A DNA stretch of 64,000 nucleotides, from assembly GCF_027531815.1 (NCBI RefSeq), contig NZ_JAPZSK010000002.1, positions 372,001-436,000 of the forward strand, in the 5' to 3' direction. Every line of letters begins with the position of its first letter. Positions within the stretch are counted from its first letter, which is position 1. Below the pieces are notes generated by a model, which worked only from the letters and a program-made list of their open reading frames with translations, ran no database searches and was not told where the DNA came from. Positions 1,650 to 33,936 of the stretch are shown here, in pieces. A program made the position numbers and the translations under genes. The stretch comes from Gemmatimonas sp. Its GTDB lineage: Bacteria > Gemmatimonadota > Gemmatimonadetes > Gemmatimonadales > Gemmatimonadaceae.

Positions 1650-2855
1650 TCAGGAGGTCACGTGGGCAAGCACCGGTTCGTGCACATCGAAGCTGGCCAC
1701 GGTGCCTGGTGACAGTCGACGATAGCACTCCAGCACGCGACCCAGCGCATCCTGTGCATCGGCGCCGATCGCCGAGAGGTGGCCCATCTTGCGGCCGGCG
1801 CGGGCCCCGGCCTTCCCGTACAGGTGGAGGCGGGTACCGGGAATGGCGAGCGCGTGCGAGATGTTGGGCGCCGATTCCTGCAGCCACACGTCGCCCAGCA
1901 GGTTGGCAATCGCGGATGGCGCGAAGACATCGGTGGCGCCGAGCGGCAGGTCGCAGATGGCGCGCACGAGCTGCTCGAACTGGCTGGTGGCCACGCCCCG
2001 TTCGCTGTGGTGATACGTATTGTGGGGACGCGGGGCGAGCTCATTCACCAGCAGTTCGCCCGTGGTGGTCACGAAACACTCCACCGCCAGCAGCCCCACG
2101 ATCCCGATGCGCTCCGCCACAGCCTTGGCGAGCGACTGGGCGCGTGCGGTCATGTCGTCGCTGATCACCGCCGGGACCACCGCCCAGGTGAGCACACCGC
2201 TCGTGTGGTGGTTGCGTGACGGCGGGTACACCGCCACCGCGCCACTCGGCGAGCGGGCCACCAGGACCGAAATTTCGTAGTGGATGTCCACCATCTGCTC
2301 CACGAGGCACGCGCGGGCGCCGAGGGCGTCCCAGGCATCCGCGCCCTGCGCCGCTTCGCGCAGGCGCACCTGTCCGCGCCCGTCGTAGCCACCGTGCGTA
2401 CTCTTCGCGATGCACGGGCCGAAGGTACTGACCGCATCGGCAATGTCGCTGGCCTGGGTGGCGGCCACGAAGTTACCCAGCGGAAACCCCTGCGCCGCGA
2501 GCCACTGCTTCTGGCGGATGCGATCCTGAATGATGTAGACGGGCTCGCGCCCCGGGCGCAGTGCACAGCGTGCCGCCACGGCATCGAGCACGTCGGGATG
2601 GATCTGCTCGATCTCCAGCGTCACGACGTCGCACTCGGAGGCGAGGGAAATGGCGGCCTCCACATCGTCGTACTTCGCGGTGATCGTGCGTGACGCCACC
2701 GGACGCGTGGCGCAGGCCGCCTCCGGGTCGAGCACCTGGATGTCATAGCCCATCGAGCGCGCGGCGAAGGCCGTCATGCGCCCCAGCTGTCCCCCGCCCA
2801 GAAAACCGATGGTGGCGCCCGGAAGGATGGGCGAGGGTGCGACGGTAACGGTCAC
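1650..2855 (-). CDS. purK: N5-carboxyaminoimidazole ribonucleotide synthase
   Basis: Uses ATP and bicarbonate to carboxylate aminoimidazole ribonucleotide to N5-CAIR in de novo purine synthesis. The 401-aa protein has the PurK N-terminal fold ([11 protein letters not shown]), the ATP-grasp core with [12 protein letters not shown], the acidic metal site [22 protein letters not shown], and a C-terminal domain with [16 protein letters not shown]. Canonical proteins have HNSGH after APRP; here it is [10 protein letters not shown], a mild variation. The start is a GTG at 2855 that overlaps the purE stop (GTGA), so translation is coupled and purE is upstream in the operon. Length fits the family. 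Confidence 0.95.
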
Positions 2856-3379
2856 GTGGCGGCGGGGCGAATGGCGTTGGGGGCGTCCAGCGGACGGGCG
2901 AGCGCTTCGGCGGCCTTGGCCGCGCGACGGTCGGCAAGACGCGCGAGGAGCGCCTCGTCGTGCGCGGCGAGCAGCTGCGCGGCGAACAGGGCGGCGTTGG
3001 CCGCTCCCGGCTTGCCCACCGCGAACGTGGCCACCGGCACGCCGGCCGGCATCTGCACGATGCTGAGCAGGGCGTCCATGCCGTTGAGCGGGGTGGCCAC
3101 CACCGGCACCCCCAGCACGGGCACCAACGTCTTGGCCGCCAGCATGCCGGGGAGATGCGCCGCCCCTCCGGCACCGGCAATGATGGCCCGCAGCCCACGC
3201 GCTCCCGCCTGCTCGGCGTACTCGAAGAGCCAGTCGGGCGTGCGATGCGCCGACACAACGCGCGCCTCGTACGGAATGCCAAGTTCGGCCAGGATGTCGC
3301 AGGCCGGCGCGAGCGTGTCGAAGTCGCTCGCGCTGCCCATGACCACACCGACGAGCGGTGTGGGAGCAGCAGGGGTCAC
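2852..3379 (-). CDS. purE: N5-carboxyaminoimidazole ribonucleotide mutase
   Basis: Interconverts N5-CAIR and CAIR, the step after PurK. The 175-aa protein carries the PurE signatures [13 protein letters not shown] near the start, [10 protein letters not shown], and [14 protein letters not shown], with the histidine of SAHR and the glycine-rich CO2-handling loop intact. This is the class I (PurK-dependent) form, consistent with the neighbouring purK. I chose the GTG at 3379, which has a GGAG about 8 nt upstream; reading further upstream would add an atypical 37-residue N-terminus that runs into the rhodanese gene. The last codons overlap the purK start. Confidence 0.93.
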
Positions 3380-3441
3380 GCGGTCTCCGGAGTGAGGGGA
3401 CAGGGGAAAAGTACCCTCACCCGGAAGGGGCCGCCCCGCGC

Positions 3442-4377
3442 CTATTCCTTGCCACCGGGCGCCACAATGGGGCGCGTGCTGCCACTCCACTCCTGGAACG
3501 ATCCGTCGTACATGCGCGCGTCGCGCTGCAGCAGCGTAGCCACGAACCAGAGCAGCGTGGCCTGCTGACCGATATGGCAGTAAGTAATGACCGGCTTGCT
3601 GCGATCCACCTGCTGCGCCGCGAACAGCGCCTCCAGTTCGGCGCGCGGGCGGAGGAAGCCGTTCACGCTGACGCTGGAGATCGGGATGTTCACGGCCGTG
3701 GGAATGTGTCCCGGGCGCGGGTAGCCGCCGCCGTCACCGTTGTAGAAGCGGGTGAGCCGCGCGTCGACGAGGAAACGCGAGCGGTCCTGGGTGGCCGATT
3801 CCACCTGCCCCACCACCGCGATGAGTTCGGGGCGCACGCGCGGGGTGAAGGTCACCGGGGCCACGGTACTCGGCGCGGCGGTGCTGACGGCGCGCTGCTC
3901 GCCCTTCCACGCCTGGTAGCCGCCGTCCATGAGTGACGTGCGATCACCGGCGCCCAGATACGACAGGGTGAAGAACACGCGGGTGGCGCTCTGCAGGTTG
4001 AAGTCATGCGGTACCACCACCACGCGGGTCCGGTCGCCGATGCCATTGCGCACCGCCCACGCCGTGAGCTGCTCCGTACCGGCCATCTGCAGCGAGAGCC
4101 CGCCTTGCACCTGTGGGAGGGCAATGTCTTCGAGCGACACATGGCGGCTGCCGGCCACATGGCCGCTGTCGTACTGCGCCTTGGTGCCCACGTGCAGCAC
4201 GACGAGGTCGCGATCGGCCGCATGCTCGGCCACCCACGCCGTGGACACGAGCATCGGCGCGGCATCGGCCGCTCGGGCGTTGGCGGGGGACGGGCGGGTG
4301 GCCGGTGTCTGCCGACAGGCGGACGCGACCAGGGAAGCAGCAAGCAACAGGACAGACCGTCGAGCAGAACGAAGCAT
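3442..4377 (-). CDS. Two-domain rhodanese (sulfurtransferase), lipoprotein
   Basis: A probable thiosulfate or 3-mercaptopyruvate sulfurtransferase exported to the periplasm. The N-terminus [21 protein letters not shown] is a lipoprotein-type signal ending in ASAC, so the mature protein is probably lipid-anchored. Two tandem rhodanese domains follow: a first, non-catalytic one ([29 protein letters not shown]) and a second with the catalytic cysteine in [13 protein letters not shown] and a matching [10 protein letters not shown] segment. This asymmetric arrangement is typical of two-domain sulfurtransferases. An alternative GTG start at 4407 would overlap the stop of the M16 gene upstream (GTGA), but the signal peptide favours the ATG at 4377. 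It probably belongs to the M16 operon. Confidence 0.85.
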
Positions 4378-27210: not shown

Positions 27211-27246
27211 GCGTCCTCGTCCGCGTCCGCGTCCGCGTCCGCGTCA
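27211..27246. repeat. GCGTCC hexanucleotide array
   Basis: Six near-identical hexamers (GCGTCC; one TCGTCC, last one GCGTCA) in tandem between nfo and envC, with the final unit containing the envC stop codon. Units 3 to 5 are identical. A simple-sequence array like this may vary in copy number. Confidence 0.85.
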
Positions 27247-28452
27247 GCGCCGGGCGCGCAGATACTCCAGTGGATCGATCGCGCGCCCCTTGGGGCGGAT
27301 CTCGAAGTGCAGGTGCGGCGGCAACTCCGGATCGATATCCCCCACGGTACCGATGACCTGCCCCTTGTTCACCTGCTGTCCGCGACGCACGCCGATAGCC
27401 TGCAGCGAGCCGTACACGGAGTAGTCGCCGCCACCATGTTGCACAATGACGGTGGGGCCATAGGTGCCCACGTTGTCGGCCAGCACGACTTCGCCGCCCG
27501 AGATGGTCTTCACGGCCGTCCCCGCGGCGGCGCCAATGCCGATGCCGTTCCAGCGGGTCGTGGTATTGTTGGGGTTGACCACGCGCCCGAAGCGGTACAG
27601 GATGGCGCCGTCCACCGGCCAGTCGAGCTTGCCCAGGTCACTGGTGCGAATCGTCGACGGTGCTGCCGGTCGCGCATCGGGCGCCATCTCGGCACGGCGA
27701 CGCGCCGTTTCGAGCGTGTTGATGGCATTGGCAATGCGCGACTCGTTGCGCGTCAGCTGCTGCAGGCGCTCTCGCGTGCGCTGGGCACTGAGCTGTACCG
27801 CCGTGAGGTTGCGCTGGCGCGTCGACTCCAGGTCGGCCAGTCGGCGCGCCTCGCGTTCCTTTTCCTGCCGGTTGCGGCTCACTTCGTCCTGCAGTCGCAC
27901 CAGGAGCATGCGCTGCGTGATGATCTGATCGCGCAGCCTCTCCACCCGGCGCACGAGATTGCGATCGTTCAGCGCCAGTTCGTGCAGGTACCTGTAGCGC
28001 GCGACAAGGCCGGCGAACGATTGGGCCGACAGCATGGCTTCCACGTCGTACAGGCTGCCGCGCTTGTAGATCTCCACCATGCGGCGCTGCAGCCCGCTCC
28101 GCTTGGTATCGAGTTCCCGTTCGGCGCGTCTCAGGCCACTGCCCGCCTTCACCACTTCCTCGTTAATTGTTTCCAGCTGCCGGTCGAGCGCGGCCACGAG
28201 GCGTCGCGTGGTCTGGCGCTGTGCCTCGAGGTTGTTCACTTCGTCGGTCAGGGAGCGGGCGCTGCGCTGCAGTTCGGTCATGCGCGTCTCCAGGTCGGCC
28301 CGCTCCTTGCGCAGCTTGTCCAGCTCGTCCCGCTGCTGGCGCAACCGCTGTTCGGGGGTCGCCTGTTGTGCGCGCAGCGCCAGCGGCACCACGCTGCCGG
28401 CGAACAGCACCGCGACGCCCATGATGGCCACGATTCGCAGGAACCCACGCAT
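27244..28452 (-). CDS. envC: EnvC-like murein hydrolase activator (degenerate M23)
   Basis: A 402-aa periplasmic protein with an N-terminal signal (RIVAIMGVAVLFAGSVVPLALRAQ), two long coiled-coil segments rich in Arg, Glu, Gln and Leu, and a C-terminal LytM/M23 domain (WPVDGAILYRFG, SGGEVVLADNVGTYGPTVIVQHG, HLHFEIR). In active M23 enzymes the first zinc site reads HxGxD; here it is WNGIG (RWNGIGIGAAAGT), so both ligands are lost, as in EnvC, which activates amidases rather than cutting peptidoglycan. The later HxH is retained, unlike in E. coli EnvC. It follows ftsX by 14 bp, matching the known FtsEX-EnvC partnership in septal splitting. ATG at 28452 was chosen because it does not overlap ftsX. 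Confidence 0.9.
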   Translation of the reverse strand: MRGFLRIVAIMGVAVLFAGSVVPLALRAQQATPEQRLRQQRDELDKLRKERADLETRMTELQRSARSLTDEVNNLEAQRQTTRRLVAALDRQLETINEEVVKAGSGLRRAERELDTKRSGLQRRMVEIYKRGSLYDVEAMLSAQSFAGLVARYRYLHELALNDRNLVRRVERLRDQIITQRMLLVRLQDEVSRNRQEKEREARRLADLESTRQRNLTAVQLSAQRTRERLQQLTRNESRIANAINTLETARRRAEMAPDARPAAPSTIRTSDLGKLDWPVDGAILYRFGRVVNPNNTTTRWNGIGIGAAAGTAVKTISGGEVVLADNVGTYGPTVIVQHGGGDYSVYGSLQAIGVRRGQQVNKGQVIGTVGDIDPELPPHLHFEIRPKGRAIDPLEYLRARR

Positions 28453-28466
28453 GCGGGTCGGGGCGA

Positions 28467-29324
28467 TCAGTCGCGCCACACCTGGCGCAGGTGGCGTCCC
28501 ACCGACACCCAACTGCCGAGCAGGCCCAGCAGCCCGCCCGCCAGAATGCCGAGGAACAGCTGCCGGGCGTCGAAGAACTGCGTCTGCATGAGCGAACGTG
28601 CCAGCACCACCGTGGTACCGTACGACAGGATGGCGGCCAGGATGCCGCCCAGCAGCCCCTTGAGCGCGCCGTCGATGAGATACGGCAGGCGTACGAACAT
28701 GTTGGTGGCACCCACCAGTCGCATGATCTCGATCTCGCGCGTGCGCGCCAGGATGGCCATGCGGATGGTACTGCCAATGATGATCACGGCCACGAGCGCG
28801 AAAACGCTACCCAGCACCGTGCCCACGAGCGCGGCGATGTTGCGGATGCGGTAGAGCTTCTCCACCCACTCTCGCCCGTAGCGCACTTCCTCCACGACGG
28901 GGTAGGTCTGCAGGTGTCGCGCGAGCTCGGCCACCGTCTCGGGATCGCGTTGCCCTTCACGCAGCCGCAGTTCCACCGACCCCGGCAGGAACGTGCCATC
29001 CATGACGTCGCGGAACTCCTCGAGCTCCGCGCGCGCGCGGGCGAGCGCCGAATCCGGCGACACGTACCCCACGTCAGCCACGGCCGGATTCCTCTCCATG
29101 CGCCGCATCAGTTGCTCGACCTGCGTATCGGTGGCGCCCTCCACGAGGAACGCGCGGATCTCCACTCGGTCTTCGACTTCGCGCAGCGCCGTACGAATGT
29201 TGAGCGCCACCAGGCCAAAGAGCCCGAAGGCGAAGAGCGAAAACGCGATGGTGACGACCCCGAGGATCGCCAGGAGCGGCGCGCGGCGGGAGGCGAGGAT
29301 AACCTCGCGCAGGGCGAGCTTCAT
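28467..29324 (-). CDS. ftsX: Cell division protein FtsX
   Basis: The permease-like subunit of the FtsEX complex at the division site, transmitting ATP hydrolysis to EnvC-type hydrolase activators. The 285-aa protein has the FtsX layout: a first transmembrane helix (LLAILGVVTIAFSLFAFGLFGL), a periplasmic loop (about residues 45-160, including VGYVSPDSALARARAELEE), then three C-terminal helices with VVIIIGSTIRMAILARTREIEIMRLVGA, the MacB-like signature. ATG at 29324, 7 nt after the ftsE stop. Order ftsE-ftsX-envC is as in many bacteria. Confidence 0.95.
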   Translation of the reverse strand: MKLALREVILASRRAPLLAILGVVTIAFSLFAFGLFGLVALNIRTALREVEDRVEIRAFLVEGATDTQVEQLMRRMERNPAVADVGYVSPDSALARARAELEEFRDVMDGTFLPGSVELRLREGQRDPETVAELARHLQTYPVVEEVRYGREWVEKLYRIRNIAALVGTVLGSVFALVAVIIIGSTIRMAILARTREIEIMRLVGATNMFVRLPYLIDGALKGLLGGILAAILSYGTTVVLARSLMQTQFFDARQLFLGILAGGLLGLLGSWVSVGRHLRQVWRD

Positions 29325-29331
29325 GGCCGGC

Positions 29332-30045
29332 TCACCCGCGCCGTCCGCGCATGTTGGCCACCAGACTACCCACGTCGGTGCCGTCGAACACGAGCTGCCC
29401 GTGGTCCAGTTCAAGGCAGCGCATGCCCGCCCGCTGAATCATGGCCACGTCGTGCGTCGCCATGAGCACCGAGGTGCCGCGCGCGTTGATCTCACGCAGC
29501 AGCAGGTAGATGGCGTGGGTGGCACGATCGTCGAGATTGCCCGTGGGCTCGTCGGCAAGCAGCAGGAACGGATCGTTGGCCAGGGCACGCGCAATGGCCA
29601 CGCGTTGCTGCTCACCGCCCGACAGCTCGTGCGGATACGCCGTGGCCCGAGCGGCGAGCCCCACCTGCGTCAACAGTCGCGCGACCTTCGGCGCAATCTG
29701 CGCGCCGGGTGTCCCCGTCACCTCGAGGGCAAAGGCGATGTTCTGTTCGGCCGTGCGGTCGGGAAGCAGGCGGAAATCCTGAAACACCACGCCAAGGCGG
29801 CGGCGCAACTGCGGGATCTCACGCGGCCTGATCGAAACGCTGGAGAAGCCCGAGACCCGCACCTCGCCGGTGGTGGGGCGCTCGGCCATCGTGAGCAGCT
29901 TGAGCAGCGTGCTCTTGCCGGCGCCCGAGTGCCCCACGAGAAAGACGAACTCGCCCTTCTGCATCTCGAAGGTGACATCACGCAGCGCCATCCCCGAACG
30001 TGGATACTCTTTCGACACGTTCGCAACATGAAGAATTCCGGACAT
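29332..30045 (-). CDS. ftsE: Cell division ATP-binding protein FtsE
   Basis: The ABC ATPase of the FtsEX complex. The 237-aa protein has Walker [16 protein letters not shown]-loop [17 protein letters not shown], signature [16 protein letters not shown], Walker [14 protein letters not shown] and H-loop ATHD. The segment [12 protein letters not shown] is characteristic of FtsE rather than other ABC proteins. ATG at 30045. It lies 3 nt downstream of the PLP-fold gene, so this group is transcribed as one unit with the upstream sugar-kinase and STAS genes. Confidence 0.96.
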
Positions 30046-30048
30046 CGG

Positions 30049-31005
30049 CTACGCGGGAGAGGCGGCCGTAACGGCCAGGGCGGCGGCCAGGGCATCCATG
30101 ACGTGTTCGGCGGGCTCCAACCCCACCTCCACGCGCAACCATCCGGACTCGCCGTGCGCGAGGAACCGGGTGGCCACCCGCTTGGGCCCGACGCCCTGCT
30201 GGAGGCGCGCGGTGGCGTGCGCGCCCACGCGCGCGGGGTTGTGTCCGTCGGGCAGCTGCAGCAGCAGCAGCGCACCGGTGCCCCTGAACGACTGCGCCAG
30301 TACCGGGTGGTCCGGGTGGTCGGGGAGACCGGCGTATACCACGCTGGCCACGTGGGGGTGCGTACCGGCCCACTGGGCGACCTGATGTGCCGCGTTGTTC
30401 TGATGGTGCACACGCACCTCGAGGGTGGCGAGGCCGCGCTCGAGCTGGGCGTATGCCGCCGGGTGGGGCTCAGCACCCCAGGCCTTCATCTTGAGCCGCA
30501 CTTCCTCCACCAGCCCCTCGGTACCGGCCACGATTCCCACCTCGCCCTCGCCATGCGGTTCGATGAACGCCGTGGCGTCGTGCAGCACGACATCGGCGCC
30601 ATGCGCCAGCGGGGTGAAGTTGACCGGTGAGGCGCCCGTGGCGTCCACGATGAGCGCGATCCCGAGTTCATCGGCGATGGTGCGGGGCGGGCGCAGGTCC
30701 ACCAGCCGTCCGCTGTCGATCACCGGTGACTCCACGAACAGCGCCCGCGTGGTTCGCTGCAGACCGCGTCGCCAGCCACGCGGCTCCCGCGGATCGACGT
30801 ACGTAACCTCTGTGCCAAGCGCGGGGAGTTCATGCATGAAGAACTCCCGCGTGGACACGCGCAACGCCAATCCGGCCAGCAGGTGATCACCCGGCCGGAG
30901 CAACGCGAGCGCCGTGCAGGCAACTGCCGCGCGACCGCTGGCCAGCACGAGGGCCGACTCAGCGCCCTCGAGCTCGGCCAGCCGACGGGACAGCGATTGA
31001 GACAC
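30049..31005 (-). CDS. Cystathionine gamma-synthase-like protein lacking the PLP lysine
   Basis: A 318-aa protein with the fold of Cys/Met-metabolism PLP enzymes but with catalytic parts missing. Visible family segments are ELEGAESALVLASGRAAV, LLRPGDHLL, LIVDATGASPVNFTPLAHGADVVLH, LERGLATLEVRVHHQNNAA and ESGWLRVEVGLEPAEHVMDAL, which includes the carboxylate-binding Arg. The Schiff-base motif, normally SATKY, reads DATAF with Ala at position 146, so no lysine can bind PLP there. About 55-60 N-terminal residues with the Tyr-x-Arg...NPT loop are also absent. It starts with GTG and sits between the 116-aa gene and ftsE with short gaps (12 and 3 nt). It is probably a non-enzymatic scaffold or regulator; that is inference. 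Confidence 0.85.
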   Translation of the reverse strand: MSQSLSRRLAELEGAESALVLASGRAAVACTALALLRPGDHLLAGLALRVSTREFFMHELPALGTEVTYVDPREPRGWRRGLQRTTRALFVESPVIDSGRLVDLRPPRTIADELGIALIVDATGASPVNFTPLAHGADVVLHDATAFIEPHGEGEVGIVAGTEGLVEEVRLKMKAWGAEPHPAAYAQLERGLATLEVRVHHQNNAAHQVAQWAGTHPHVASVVYAGLPDHPDHPVLAQSFRGTGALLLLQLPDGHNPARVGAHATARLQQGVGPKRVATRFLAHGESGWLRVEVGLEPAEHVMDALAAALAVTAASPA

Positions 31006-31017
31006 AGGAAGTGGGGA

Positions 31018-31368
31018 TCAGGGACGAGGACGGGGAGGGCGGTCTACCCGGAGGACCCGGATGACGTCCGCCAGCGAAGCCCCCACCACGTCCCGCAGGA
31101 CGACGGCCCCGCGCGGGAGCGATTCATCGATCTCGAGGACGGCCAGCTCGGAACAGCGGTCCGATACCACACGCACGAGATCGCCGGCGGTCACGAGGCG
31201 AACGAGCGCGTCATCGGGGCGCATGCGCACCATGGGTCCGCGGTCGGGATCGCCCTTGCGGGTGCCGATGAACCCCATCACCTGCAGCGGGGGGGAGAAC
31301 CCGCTGAACACCCCCAGCTTGCGCCCCCCGCCAACGGAGCCCCCGAGGCGCTTCTTGTCGTCGCTCAC
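31018..31368 (-). CDS. Uncharacterised 116-aa protein
   Basis: I do not recognise this small basic/acidic mixed protein. It has a glycine-rich start (LGGSVGGGRKLGVFSGFSP) and then regular beta-strands (AGDLVRVVSDRCSELAVLEI, LPRGAVVLRDVVGASLADVI), which loosely resemble a double-psi beta barrel as in molybdopterin-binding domains; that similarity is weak. The GTG at 31368 overlaps the stop of the STAS-like gene (GTGA) and 12 nt separate it from the PLP-fold gene, so it is inside the coupled operon. No signal peptide or transmembrane helix is visible. Confidence 0.7.
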   Translation of the reverse strand: MSDDKKRLGGSVGGGRKLGVFSGFSPPLQVMGFIGTRKGDPDRGPMVRMRPDDALVRLVTAGDLVRVVSDRCSELAVLEIDESLPRGAVVLRDVVGASLADVIRVLRVDRPPRPRP

Positions 31369-31949
31369 TGTACTCCCTGTCCCTGGCCCGGCAGCGTGCC
31401 GGACGCGCCGTGGACCACGCCCGGTACCGAATACCCCAGCTCGTGACGCATGACGAGGCGACGGCGGGCCAGACGCTCCAGCTGCCCCTCGGCGAACTCC
31501 AGTGCCACCCCCAGCAACGTGGCAACGGTGGCAGAAACCACCGGCCCGTGGTCCCGCACCGTGAGCCAGTGATCGCGCTCGTCGTCGTCCACGTAGCCGA
31601 ACAGCTCCGCCTCCCCCTCGTGCCAGGAGACCAGCGCCAGGGCGTGCCGTTCGAGCACGGTTTCGATGGGATCGATATGGCCTTCGTGAATGCCGCGGAA
31701 GGTGAGATACCCCGACGGACCATCCTCACTGGTATAGCGCAGCAGCAGCTTCGCCACGATTTCGTCAGCGCAGGAGAAATCGAGCAGGTTGACCTGCGAG
31801 AAGTCGATGGTGGTCACCACCGGCGCCCCGATCTCGGTGACCTGGCGCTCGATTGCCGACCGCACCGCTGCTCCGGTGGGGCGGGTGACGAGATTGGAAT
31901 ACAGGTCGCACACCGTGCCGCGCAAAACCGTGCCCACGTCGATGTGCAT
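31365..31949 (-). CDS. STAS-like (DUF4325-type) protein
   Basis: A 194-aa cytoplasmic protein. The core VTTIDFSQVNLLDFSCADEIVAKLLLRY followed by GYLTFRGIHEGHIDPIETVLERHALALV matches STAS-like/DUF4325 domains: the first strand-turn carries the FxxxxxxDxxxxDE pattern and the second the GI..H..PI segment. DUF4325 proteins commonly lie beside HATPase-type partners, as here. The start ATG overlaps the stop of the HATPase gene by 1 bp (ATGA). I left out a 48-residue upstream extension that would overlap the HATPase gene further. It probably forms a partner-switching pair with the upstream protein. Confidence 0.82.
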   Translation of the reverse strand: MHIDVGTVLRGTVCDLYSNLVTRPTGAAVRSAIERQVTEIGAPVVTTIDFSQVNLLDFSCADEIVAKLLLRYTSEDGPSGYLTFRGIHEGHIDPIETVLERHALALVSWHEGEAELFGYVDDDERDHWLTVRDHGPVVSATVATLLGVALEFAEGQLERLARRRLVMRHELGYSVPGVVHGASGTLPGQGQGVQ

Positions 31950-32893
31950 CAGAAACGGCTCCGGCCGCGGGTTGCGGTCGCGGTACTGCGTGGGCGCGCC
32001 GGCGCATCGGCCGAGCGCTCCGGGATGATGATCTGCATCTGGGCCCCCGGAAAGAACGGCAACCCTTCGGTCATGGGCACATCCTCGTCCCACTCGGGAA
32101 TGATCCCCAGGCGCGCCGTCCCGCTGCGCACCGTGAGCTTGCCGTGCCAGCGCCCGACAAAACGGCGGATCCCCGCGAGTCCCTGGCCACGACCGGCATC
32201 GCCATGACGAAAGCGGGAGACGGCGCGCAGCACCGCATCTTCGAGGGCCATGGCGTCATCCCAGCGATCCTTGTGGCGATGACCGGGCGCACTCTCGAGC
32301 GACGTGCGGAAGCCCACGCCGGCATCGCAGACGGCAATCTGCACCACCCGACGGCCCAGGCGCTGCTTGTAGTTGTAGGTCTGCACCGCCACCCACCCGC
32401 CCAGGCCGGCGTGTTCGACGATGTTCTGGCACGACTCGCTGAGCGTCATGCCGAACGCGCCGGTCACCGCGGTATCGAGGTTGAGCTGACCGTGCAGGAT
32501 GTCGGCGGCCTTCTGCTGGATGCGTCCCACCACGCCGTGCACATCGTCGCTCTTGGTGATGGGCGTGATCTCCAGCAGCACCTCGCTTTCGTGCGCCTCG
32601 CGGGGTCGCGGCACGGTACCGTGCAGTTCGTACAACTCGGCCGCGTGACGGAAGAAGCCGGCGCGCGACCAGTAGCTCACCGTGTCGGGGTGCTCGGGCA
32701 CCGCGAATCCAATGGGCTCGGAGCGCGCCTGCGGCACGCACAGCAGGGCGGTGAGCCCATACGGCGACGCCCAGCGCGCGTGGCGCGCGTCGAGCAGGAT
32801 CTTCGATCCGTCGGGAGCGGCGGCGAGCTGCTCGATGACCTGCTCGAACGAGTGCTCGTCGAGCGAGGGCGGCACGCTGATGACGATCGTCAC
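31949..32893 (-). CDS. STAS domain fused to GHKL/HATPase domain
   Basis: A 314-aa protein, one candidate half of a partner-switch. Residues about 5-90 look like a STAS antagonist domain (KILLDARHARWASPYGLTALL, in the place of the usual DSSG loop). Residues about 130-290 are an HATPase fold with N-box ESCQNIVEHA (153-162), G1 CDAGVGF (189-195) and G2 GRGQGLAGI (234-242). No histidine-phosphotransfer H-box is visible, so it behaves more like an anti-sigma-type kinase than a sensor kinase. The start is GTG at 32893, overlapping the PfkB stop (GTGA). Whether it phosphorylates its own STAS domain or the neighbour is unknown. Confidence 0.8.
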   Translation of the reverse strand: MTIVISVPPSLDEHSFEQVIEQLAAAPDGSKILLDARHARWASPYGLTALLCVPQARSEPIGFAVPEHPDTVSYWSRAGFFRHAAELYELHGTVPRPREAHESEVLLEITPITKSDDVHGVVGRIQQKAADILHGQLNLDTAVTGAFGMTLSESCQNIVEHAGLGGWVAVQTYNYKQRLGRRVVQIAVCDAGVGFRTSLESAPGHRHKDRWDDAMALEDAVLRAVSRFRHGDAGRGQGLAGIRRFVGRWHGKLTVRSGTARLGIIPEWDEDVPMTEGLPFFPGAQMQIIIPERSADAPARPRSTATATRGRSRF

Positions 32894-33936
32894 GTGGTGC
32901 TGAGCTCTCCGCGGAGATGATTCGCGAGACCGTTGGCCCCACGATGTTCGACGTTGCGCGACGCAGCCCTGTTCGCCGCCGCGATGGCGTCCGTCAACTT
33001 ATCACCGGCGAGGAGCCGTGAGAAATGGGTGGCGCCCCACACATCGCCGCATCCCGTGGGATCCCCGGGGCCATCGACGCGCGGCGCGACGCCGGGAACG
33101 AGCGCCGTGCGCACGGCGCCAAGCGCCCCAGCGCCACCCCGGGGCGATGTGGACAGCGCAGCGTTGTGACCTCGTCGTGGCGGCAGATCCTGCAGGCGCT
33201 CAATGCCCGGGGCCGCGAAGTACGCCGCGCCGCGCTTGCCGAGGGTGACGCCCAGAATGGAGACCCCCGCCGCCATCGCGGTCGCCGCGAGCGCCATGGA
33301 GTCGGGGGCCATGAGGCGCATCTCGTCCTCGTTCACCTGCAGCACGTCGAAGCAGCTGCACCACTCCGCGACATTGGGAAGCGGGCGCGGCGTGCGCAGG
33401 CCGTCGGCCTGGACCGCCATGACGAGCATGTGCAGGTCACAGTAGATGGGGCCGGTGAAGTGGGCGCGAATGAGCTGCGCCGTTTCGAGGTCGAGCTCCC
33501 ACCCGCTGAGCAGGTTGATGTAGAGCGCGTCGAGGCGCGCCGCTTCCAGCACCGGCTTGAGCCCCAGCCATGTCCATCCGGGGACGCCACCGGTGAGATG
33601 TTCGGTGCGCCGTTCATCGTCGAGGTAGCGCAGCTCGACGCGATTGTTGGGGTAGGGCACACCGATGAGCGCGGCATCGGGGGCCATACGCCGCAGCCCC
33701 CGGATGTACAGCTGCGCCCGTTCCACCAGATCGTCGCCCACCATGGCGAGCGGCACGATCTCCCAGTCATCGGTGAGTGCCGCGTCGAGCGCCGACAGCG
33801 AGTAGGTAATGCCCCCCCACTCCTCCATGGGCACGCTGCGCCGGTCGCGTCCATGCAGCACATCCCACACGAAGGAGCCGATCACTCCCACGCGTTGGCG
33901 TGGCGCACCGGGTCCGGGAGCGGCCGACATCGTCAC
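32890..33936 (-). CDS. PfkB-family carbohydrate kinase
   Basis: A 348-aa cytoplasmic kinase of the ribokinase/PfkB fold. The N-terminal VGVIGSFVWDVLHG and the C-terminal DPTGCGDVWGATHFSRLLAG are the two PfkB signatures, the latter with the catalytic Asp and anion hole; TLGKRGAAYF marks the nucleotide site. Substrate cannot be told from sequence. The GTG at 33936 overlaps the ROK stop (GTGA), though an ATG at 33930 is also possible. The next gene (STAS-HATPase) starts within its stop codon. Possible substrates are ribose, a nucleoside or a sugar phosphate. Confidence 0.86.
   Translation of the reverse strand: MTMSAAPGPGAPRQRVGVIGSFVWDVLHGRDRRSVPMEEWGGITYSLSALDAALTDDWEIVPLAMVGDDLVERAQLYIRGLRRMAPDAALIGVPYPNNRVELRYLDDERRTEHLTGGVPGWTWLGLKPVLEAARLDALYINLLSGWELDLETAQLIRAHFTGPIYCDLHMLVMAVQADGLRTPRPLPNVAEWCSCFDVLQVNEDEMRLMAPDSMALAATAMAAGVSILGVTLGKRGAAYFAAPGIERLQDLPPRRGHNAALSTSPRGGAGALGAVRTALVPGVAPRVDGPGDPTGCGDVWGATHFSRLLAGDKLTDAIAAANRAASRNVEHRGANGLANHLRGELSTT

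Follow-up and report, generated by a model that had tools for sequence, protein, structure and literature searches.

Upstream of ftsE in one Gemmatimonas genome lies a gene for a protein of the cystathionine gamma-synthase (CGS) family that has alanine where the family carries its catalytic lysine. Is this protein still an enzyme, and if it is not, what keeps the gene in place? The window analyzed here is a stretch of 64,000 nucleotides from that genome. The gene, its critical codons and its neighbors are as follows:

27244..28512, reverse strand: M23 peptidase with a coiled coil (EnvC/PcsB-like), downstream of ftsX (PF01551, E 2.6e-26)
28467..29324, reverse strand: ftsX, taken to start at an ATG inside the open frame (FtsX_ECD and FtsX domains)
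29332..30045, reverse strand: ftsE, an ABC ATPase that follows the pseudoenzyme stop after 3 nt (PF00005)
30049..31005, reverse strand: CGS-family pseudoenzyme without the lysine and with a truncated N-terminus, 318 aa from a GTG start (open reading frame; PF01053, E 7.8e-58; AlphaFold2; dN/dS <1)
30568..30570, reverse strand: GCG codon for Ala146, where the family has the pyridoxal phosphate (PLP) Schiff-base lysine, HDATAF for HSATKY (sequence and alignment)
31018..31020, reverse strand: in-frame TGA, the stop of the upstream gene, which bounds the pseudoenzyme N-terminus 4 codons before the GTG
31018..31368, reverse strand: upstream operon gene, 116 aa, a stand-alone molybdopterin-dinucleotide-binding-like domain (PF01568, E 1.6e-6)

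The 318-aa frame contains no internal stops. Its product scores 196 bits against PF01053 (curated Pfam cut-off 27) and is a member of this family by homology, and it falls far below all NCBIfam cut-offs. The match covers positions 55-307 of the 381 in the profile, leaving about 55-60 N-terminal residues missing. Because the TGA lies in frame 4 codons before the GTG, the missing arm is physically absent and cannot be recovered by shifting the start. The position of the GTG is kept in the window's subclade. The AlphaFold2 model has a mean pLDDT of 92 and a pTM of 0.90. The closest PDB folds are methionine gamma-lyases, with 5e4z at the top (TMq 0.89, 28% identity).

The protein aligns to Citrobacter methionine gamma-lyase without gaps at an offset of +64, which places A146 at K210, R49 at Y113 and D121 at D185. 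The residue roles given below are those of methionine gamma-lyase, which we take to apply to the aligned positions. The codon read at 30570-30568 is GCG and its aligned column is that of the family lysine, so the Schiff-base lysine of the SATK[YW] motif is replaced by alanine. Most residues that bind the phosphate and the ring are lost as well (equivalents of Y59, R61, Y114, N161 and S208). Y59 and R61, which bind phosphate in the neighboring subunit, belong to the absent N-terminal arm. The equivalents of Tyr114, Asn161, Ser208 and Thr210 are Arg, Ile, Asp and Thr. Only the threonine is kept, and it is lost in most other lysine-less (dead) copies. The window protein retains D121 in VDAT, equivalent to Asp186 that contacts the PLP ring nitrogen, the RG.ATL segment, and R291 in GWLRVEVGLE, equivalent to Arg375 that binds the substrate carboxylate. 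K172, considered as a shifted catalytic lysine, is shared by the dead copies and many of the enzymes. The original prediction had described the alanine, the retained segments and the short N-terminus from the letters of this stretch, and each was confirmed. The sequence gives good support to its claim that such a protein cannot form the usual aldimine, and the window protein is predicted to be unable to form the internal aldimine.

We searched 30 Gemmatimonas genomes for the locus and found an orthologue in 27. All 27 adjoin the 116-aa molybdopterin-binding-like gene, ftsE or both, as far as the contigs reach. The lysine is absent from 26 of them, replaced by A, V, L, M, H, E, R, T, F or G, and the YTRY.N.PN N-terminal arm is missing from every lysine-less copy. 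Possible remnants of the arm are seen as LLHGGRD (L046) and LLHDVG...DAPN (L027), suggesting that the junctions differ between lineages. In the core Gemmatimonas clade, Y114->R, Q178->A and D181->H are new residues that have become fixed, each shared by 12-13 of 13 diverse dead copies. The sole genus copy with the lysine is that of G301 (L047, a metagenome-assembled genome), which reads SATKYLNGHHD and starts at a contig edge. A scan of the contigs with the window protein found a single other Gemmatimonas copy; the remaining matches were distant family members, which served as the comparison set. The orthologue alignment proposed in the original prediction thus bears out both the lysine loss and the short N-terminus across the genus. 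A sequencing or assembly error, a frameshift or a wrong start is ruled out with near certainty, by the sister genome G055 (protein 87% identical), which has the same alanine and the same start, by the lysine-less state of the other genus copies and by the in-frame stop upstream.

Outside the genus, 15 loci from other genera and 84 further sequences from the family and order were compared. The lysine is kept in 15/15 and 82/84, respectively, and 80 of the 84 have the complete scored catalytic set. The expectation that sister species lack the lysine therefore stands within Gemmatimonas and does not extend to other genera, where the orthologues keep it. In most sampled Gemmatimonadaceae, a full-length CGS-family PLP enzyme, predicted from its residues to be active, lies between the molybdopterin-binding-like gene and ftsE. 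Since the lysine is kept in nearly all of these copies, the ancestral gene encoded a full-length enzyme and the window protein is derived. The two lysine-less copies, L169 (G202) and L238 (G101), come from separate genera. Both stand at the ftsE locus, and further cofactor residues are gone from each.

The lysine was probably lost more than once. On a tree of FtsE, FtsX and the upstream gene, the active G301 copy is nested among lysine-less species, and a single lysine-less Gemmatimonas clade is rejected (p-AU 9e-5). The pseudoenzyme's own tree rejects a single lysine-loss clade weakly (p-AU 0.09). A single ancient loss is thus disfavored by the host genes and not firmly by the protein itself. 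One loss followed by re-entry of an active allele into G301 could also account for these trees. Counting L169 and L238, there were at least three lysine losses, and at least four if the G301 gene was vertically inherited.

Selection on the lysine-less gene was analyzed next to that on its neighbors. In sixteen related pairs dN/dS is 0.01-0.27. When ten pairs were read out of register, four of the five alternative frames gave 1.2-12, and frame -2 was low because it shares third positions. About 2.4% of random single changes would create a stop, and none is found inside the 27 genus copies. The low dN/dS and the absence of stops indicate that the proteins are made and selected, and rule out a simple pseudogene. 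The window-type gene therefore combines catalytic loss with purifying selection at the protein level. The constraint is weaker than that on the neighbors, as dN/dS is usually above that of ftsE and ftsX, which are mostly more constrained. Branch lengths show the dead copies evolving several-fold faster than the enzymes.

As predicted, the pseudoenzyme lies upstream of ftsE in a tight operon, 12 nt from the upstream gene and 3 nt from ftsE, and the 116-aa gene adjoins the CGS gene or ftsE in nearly all family loci read. Upstream of the operon, 31365-33936 on the reverse strand holds a weak HATPase-like gene below the Pfam cut-off, a frame without a Pfam match that appears by eye to be a STAS-type protein, and a PfkB-type kinase, all on the same strand as the operon. 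In most dead copies the spacing to ftsE is -1 to +3 nt, which would fit a leader that couples translation to ftsE and whose peptide sequence is irrelevant. We consider this very improbable, as purifying selection acts on the amino acids and, in genomes that have lost the frame by deletion, ftsE comes directly after the upstream gene.

Six genomes (G300, G302, G040, G089, G155 and G195) have lost the gene by deletion or replacement, and all of them keep ftsE. An internal deletion in G300 (L054) has reduced it to about 36 codons, which lie between the upstream gene and ftsE. No remnant is left in G302 (L057), and G040, G089 and G155 have the upstream gene directly next to ftsE. In G195 (L237, G195:C415), a multi-pass membrane protein that resembles an AI-2E family transporter by eye occupies 2157-3560 on the reverse strand between the molybdopterin-binding-like gene and ftsE. 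A series from active enzyme to dead short protein to loss is seen at this locus. Deletion in lineages that keep ftsE shows that the pseudoenzyme is not needed for FtsEX and is dispensable over evolutionary time.

This gradient, running through the ~36-aa remnant of G300 to absence or replacement, is also what is expected of a relic in slow decay, in which a redundant enzyme lost catalysis and persists under residual constraint, for example against toxic misfolding, with no positive role. The accelerated evolution and the many different residues at the lysine site point the same way. However, dN/dS stays at 0.01-0.27 and the 27 genus copies have accumulated no internal stops over a large divergence, the start of the short form is conserved, and the three new residues are fixed. 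We regard a relic as a rather unlikely explanation. With modest confidence, we favor a pseudoenzyme kept by selection because it has a binding or regulatory role that needs no catalysis; the active ancestor probably had this role already.

Residue conservation indicates what may have been kept. The comparison took in 81 enzymes linked to ftsE, 19 dead copies and 81 further proteins of the CGS family. The positions that every enzyme conserves and the dead copies have lost are active-site positions. In the dead copies, K211 and Y114 are retained in 0%, N161 in 5%, S208 in 16% and T210 in 26%, D186 in all and R375 in 89%. P72, R76, A117, E168 and V169 are kept in 100% of the dead copies and E59 in 95%, and these residues occur in 0-12% of the other CGS proteins. 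They are the top entries of a table to which no filter was applied, and where some subfamily-specific positions are lost and some kept. W78 and R79 are invariant in the dead copies. Judging from the alignment, the kept residues are at non-catalytic positions, and they may form one surface patch.

A selected binding role could have arisen as follows. In Gemmatimonas and, separately, in two other genera, the enzyme lost the catalytic lysine and most of the Tyr, Arg and Asn residues that bind the cofactor. In Gemmatimonas the N-terminal arm was lost too, with the remaining fold staying under purifying selection. The window genome has three lysine-bearing paralogues (L001, L002 and L004), which makes redundant chemistry plausible, and catalysis at this locus may have become dispensable through them. 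The protein would then have been preserved by a second role that needs no catalysis and that the active ancestor already had. The simplest such role would be binding of a partner protein through P72, R76, W78 and R79 together with E168-V169. The partner might, more tentatively, be made from the same operon. The putative scaffold or sensor role put forward in the original prediction is plausible. A link to FtsEX may be proposed; the one pointer to it is the conserved adjacency, while ftsE persists where the gene is gone. A bolder version seems unlikely to us, namely that the ancestral ftsE-linked PLP enzyme was bifunctional, acting in metabolism and binding a partner in cell division or the cell wall (either FtsE or the 116-aa protein), and that its chemistry was repeatedly shed while division-linked regulation was kept. 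If true, a sulfur-amino-acid enzyme would have turned into an FtsEX regulator.

Fold type I enzymes build their active sites at dimer interfaces. A lysine-less chain could therefore form a mixed dimer with a lysine-bearing paralogue and support or regulate that enzyme, as LCB1 does with LCB2 (PMC3794620), and such paralogues are encoded in the genome. However, the closest of them are only ~31% identical, the arm carrying Tyr59 and Arg61 for the neighboring subunit is lost, and the gene remains linked to ftsE rather than to a paralogue. We judge a mixed dimer to be quite improbable, and return to a selected non-catalytic role as the preferred explanation.

Two other family members deserve mention. 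An O-acetylhomoserine-sulfhydrylase homologue in the window genome (C2:370394-371563, L003/L058) lies ~440 bp before the window's first base. Its Schiff-base lysine is replaced by threonine (HSATTWIGGHG), and compared with the sister G055 it has an in-frame N-terminal deletion of 27 aa. HSATKWIGGHG is kept in the 17 other genus orthologues with the motif read. This is either a second, very recent lysine loss in this genome or an assembly fault. A homologue of the same enzyme near a contig start (L075, G289:C143) keeps the lysine and seems to be without a large N-terminal stretch (TLALHLGQEKPDGATDVFEQR). Its short N-terminus is possibly an assembly artefact.

Genes annotated as CGS-family enzymes at the ftsE locus of Gemmatimonas are unlikely to encode enzymes. 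Pseudoenzymes are a known kind of protein; our literature searches on PLP pseudoenzymes of this family and on Gemmatimonas ftsE found no prior report of an ftsE-linked one in the open-access papers searched. The locus offers a bacterial case in which active, dead-but-selected, remnant and absent stages, with probably repeated losses, can be compared at one syntenic position among close species. If the retained protein binds a product of the ftsE operon, it would connect sulfur amino-acid enzymes, unexpectedly, with the cell-wall hydrolase system of FtsEX.

The window protein has its fold, the equivalents of Asp185 and the C-terminal Arg, and its domain order in common with the PF01053 enzymes methionine gamma-lyase, cystathionine gamma-synthase and O-succinylhomoserine sulfhydrylase. 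Unlike them, it is without the Schiff-base lysine and the Tyr/Arg N-terminal arm, and has lost the equivalents of Tyr113, Asn160 and Ser207. The ftsE-linked enzymes of other Gemmatimonadaceae (for example L024, L017 and L018) are direct orthologues at the same locus, with ~41-55% identity and shared R.WR and E-V residues. In contrast to the window protein, they are full length, carry YTRY.N.PN, WIYGG and SATKYLNGHHD, and are predicted to be active. LCB1/SPTLC1, the lysine-less subunit of serine palmitoyltransferase, is likewise a fold type I PLP protein kept as non-catalytic (PMC3794620). It differs in being an obligate heterodimer with its active paralogue, eukaryotic and of a different subfamily. 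The fungal Ssd1/Dis3L2 pseudonucleases lost catalysis repeatedly and independently with their non-catalytic function conserved, and that second function is proposed to predate the loss (PMC8097288). This is the same evolutionary model as the one proposed here for the window protein, in a fungal protein of RNase II fold whose second function is known.
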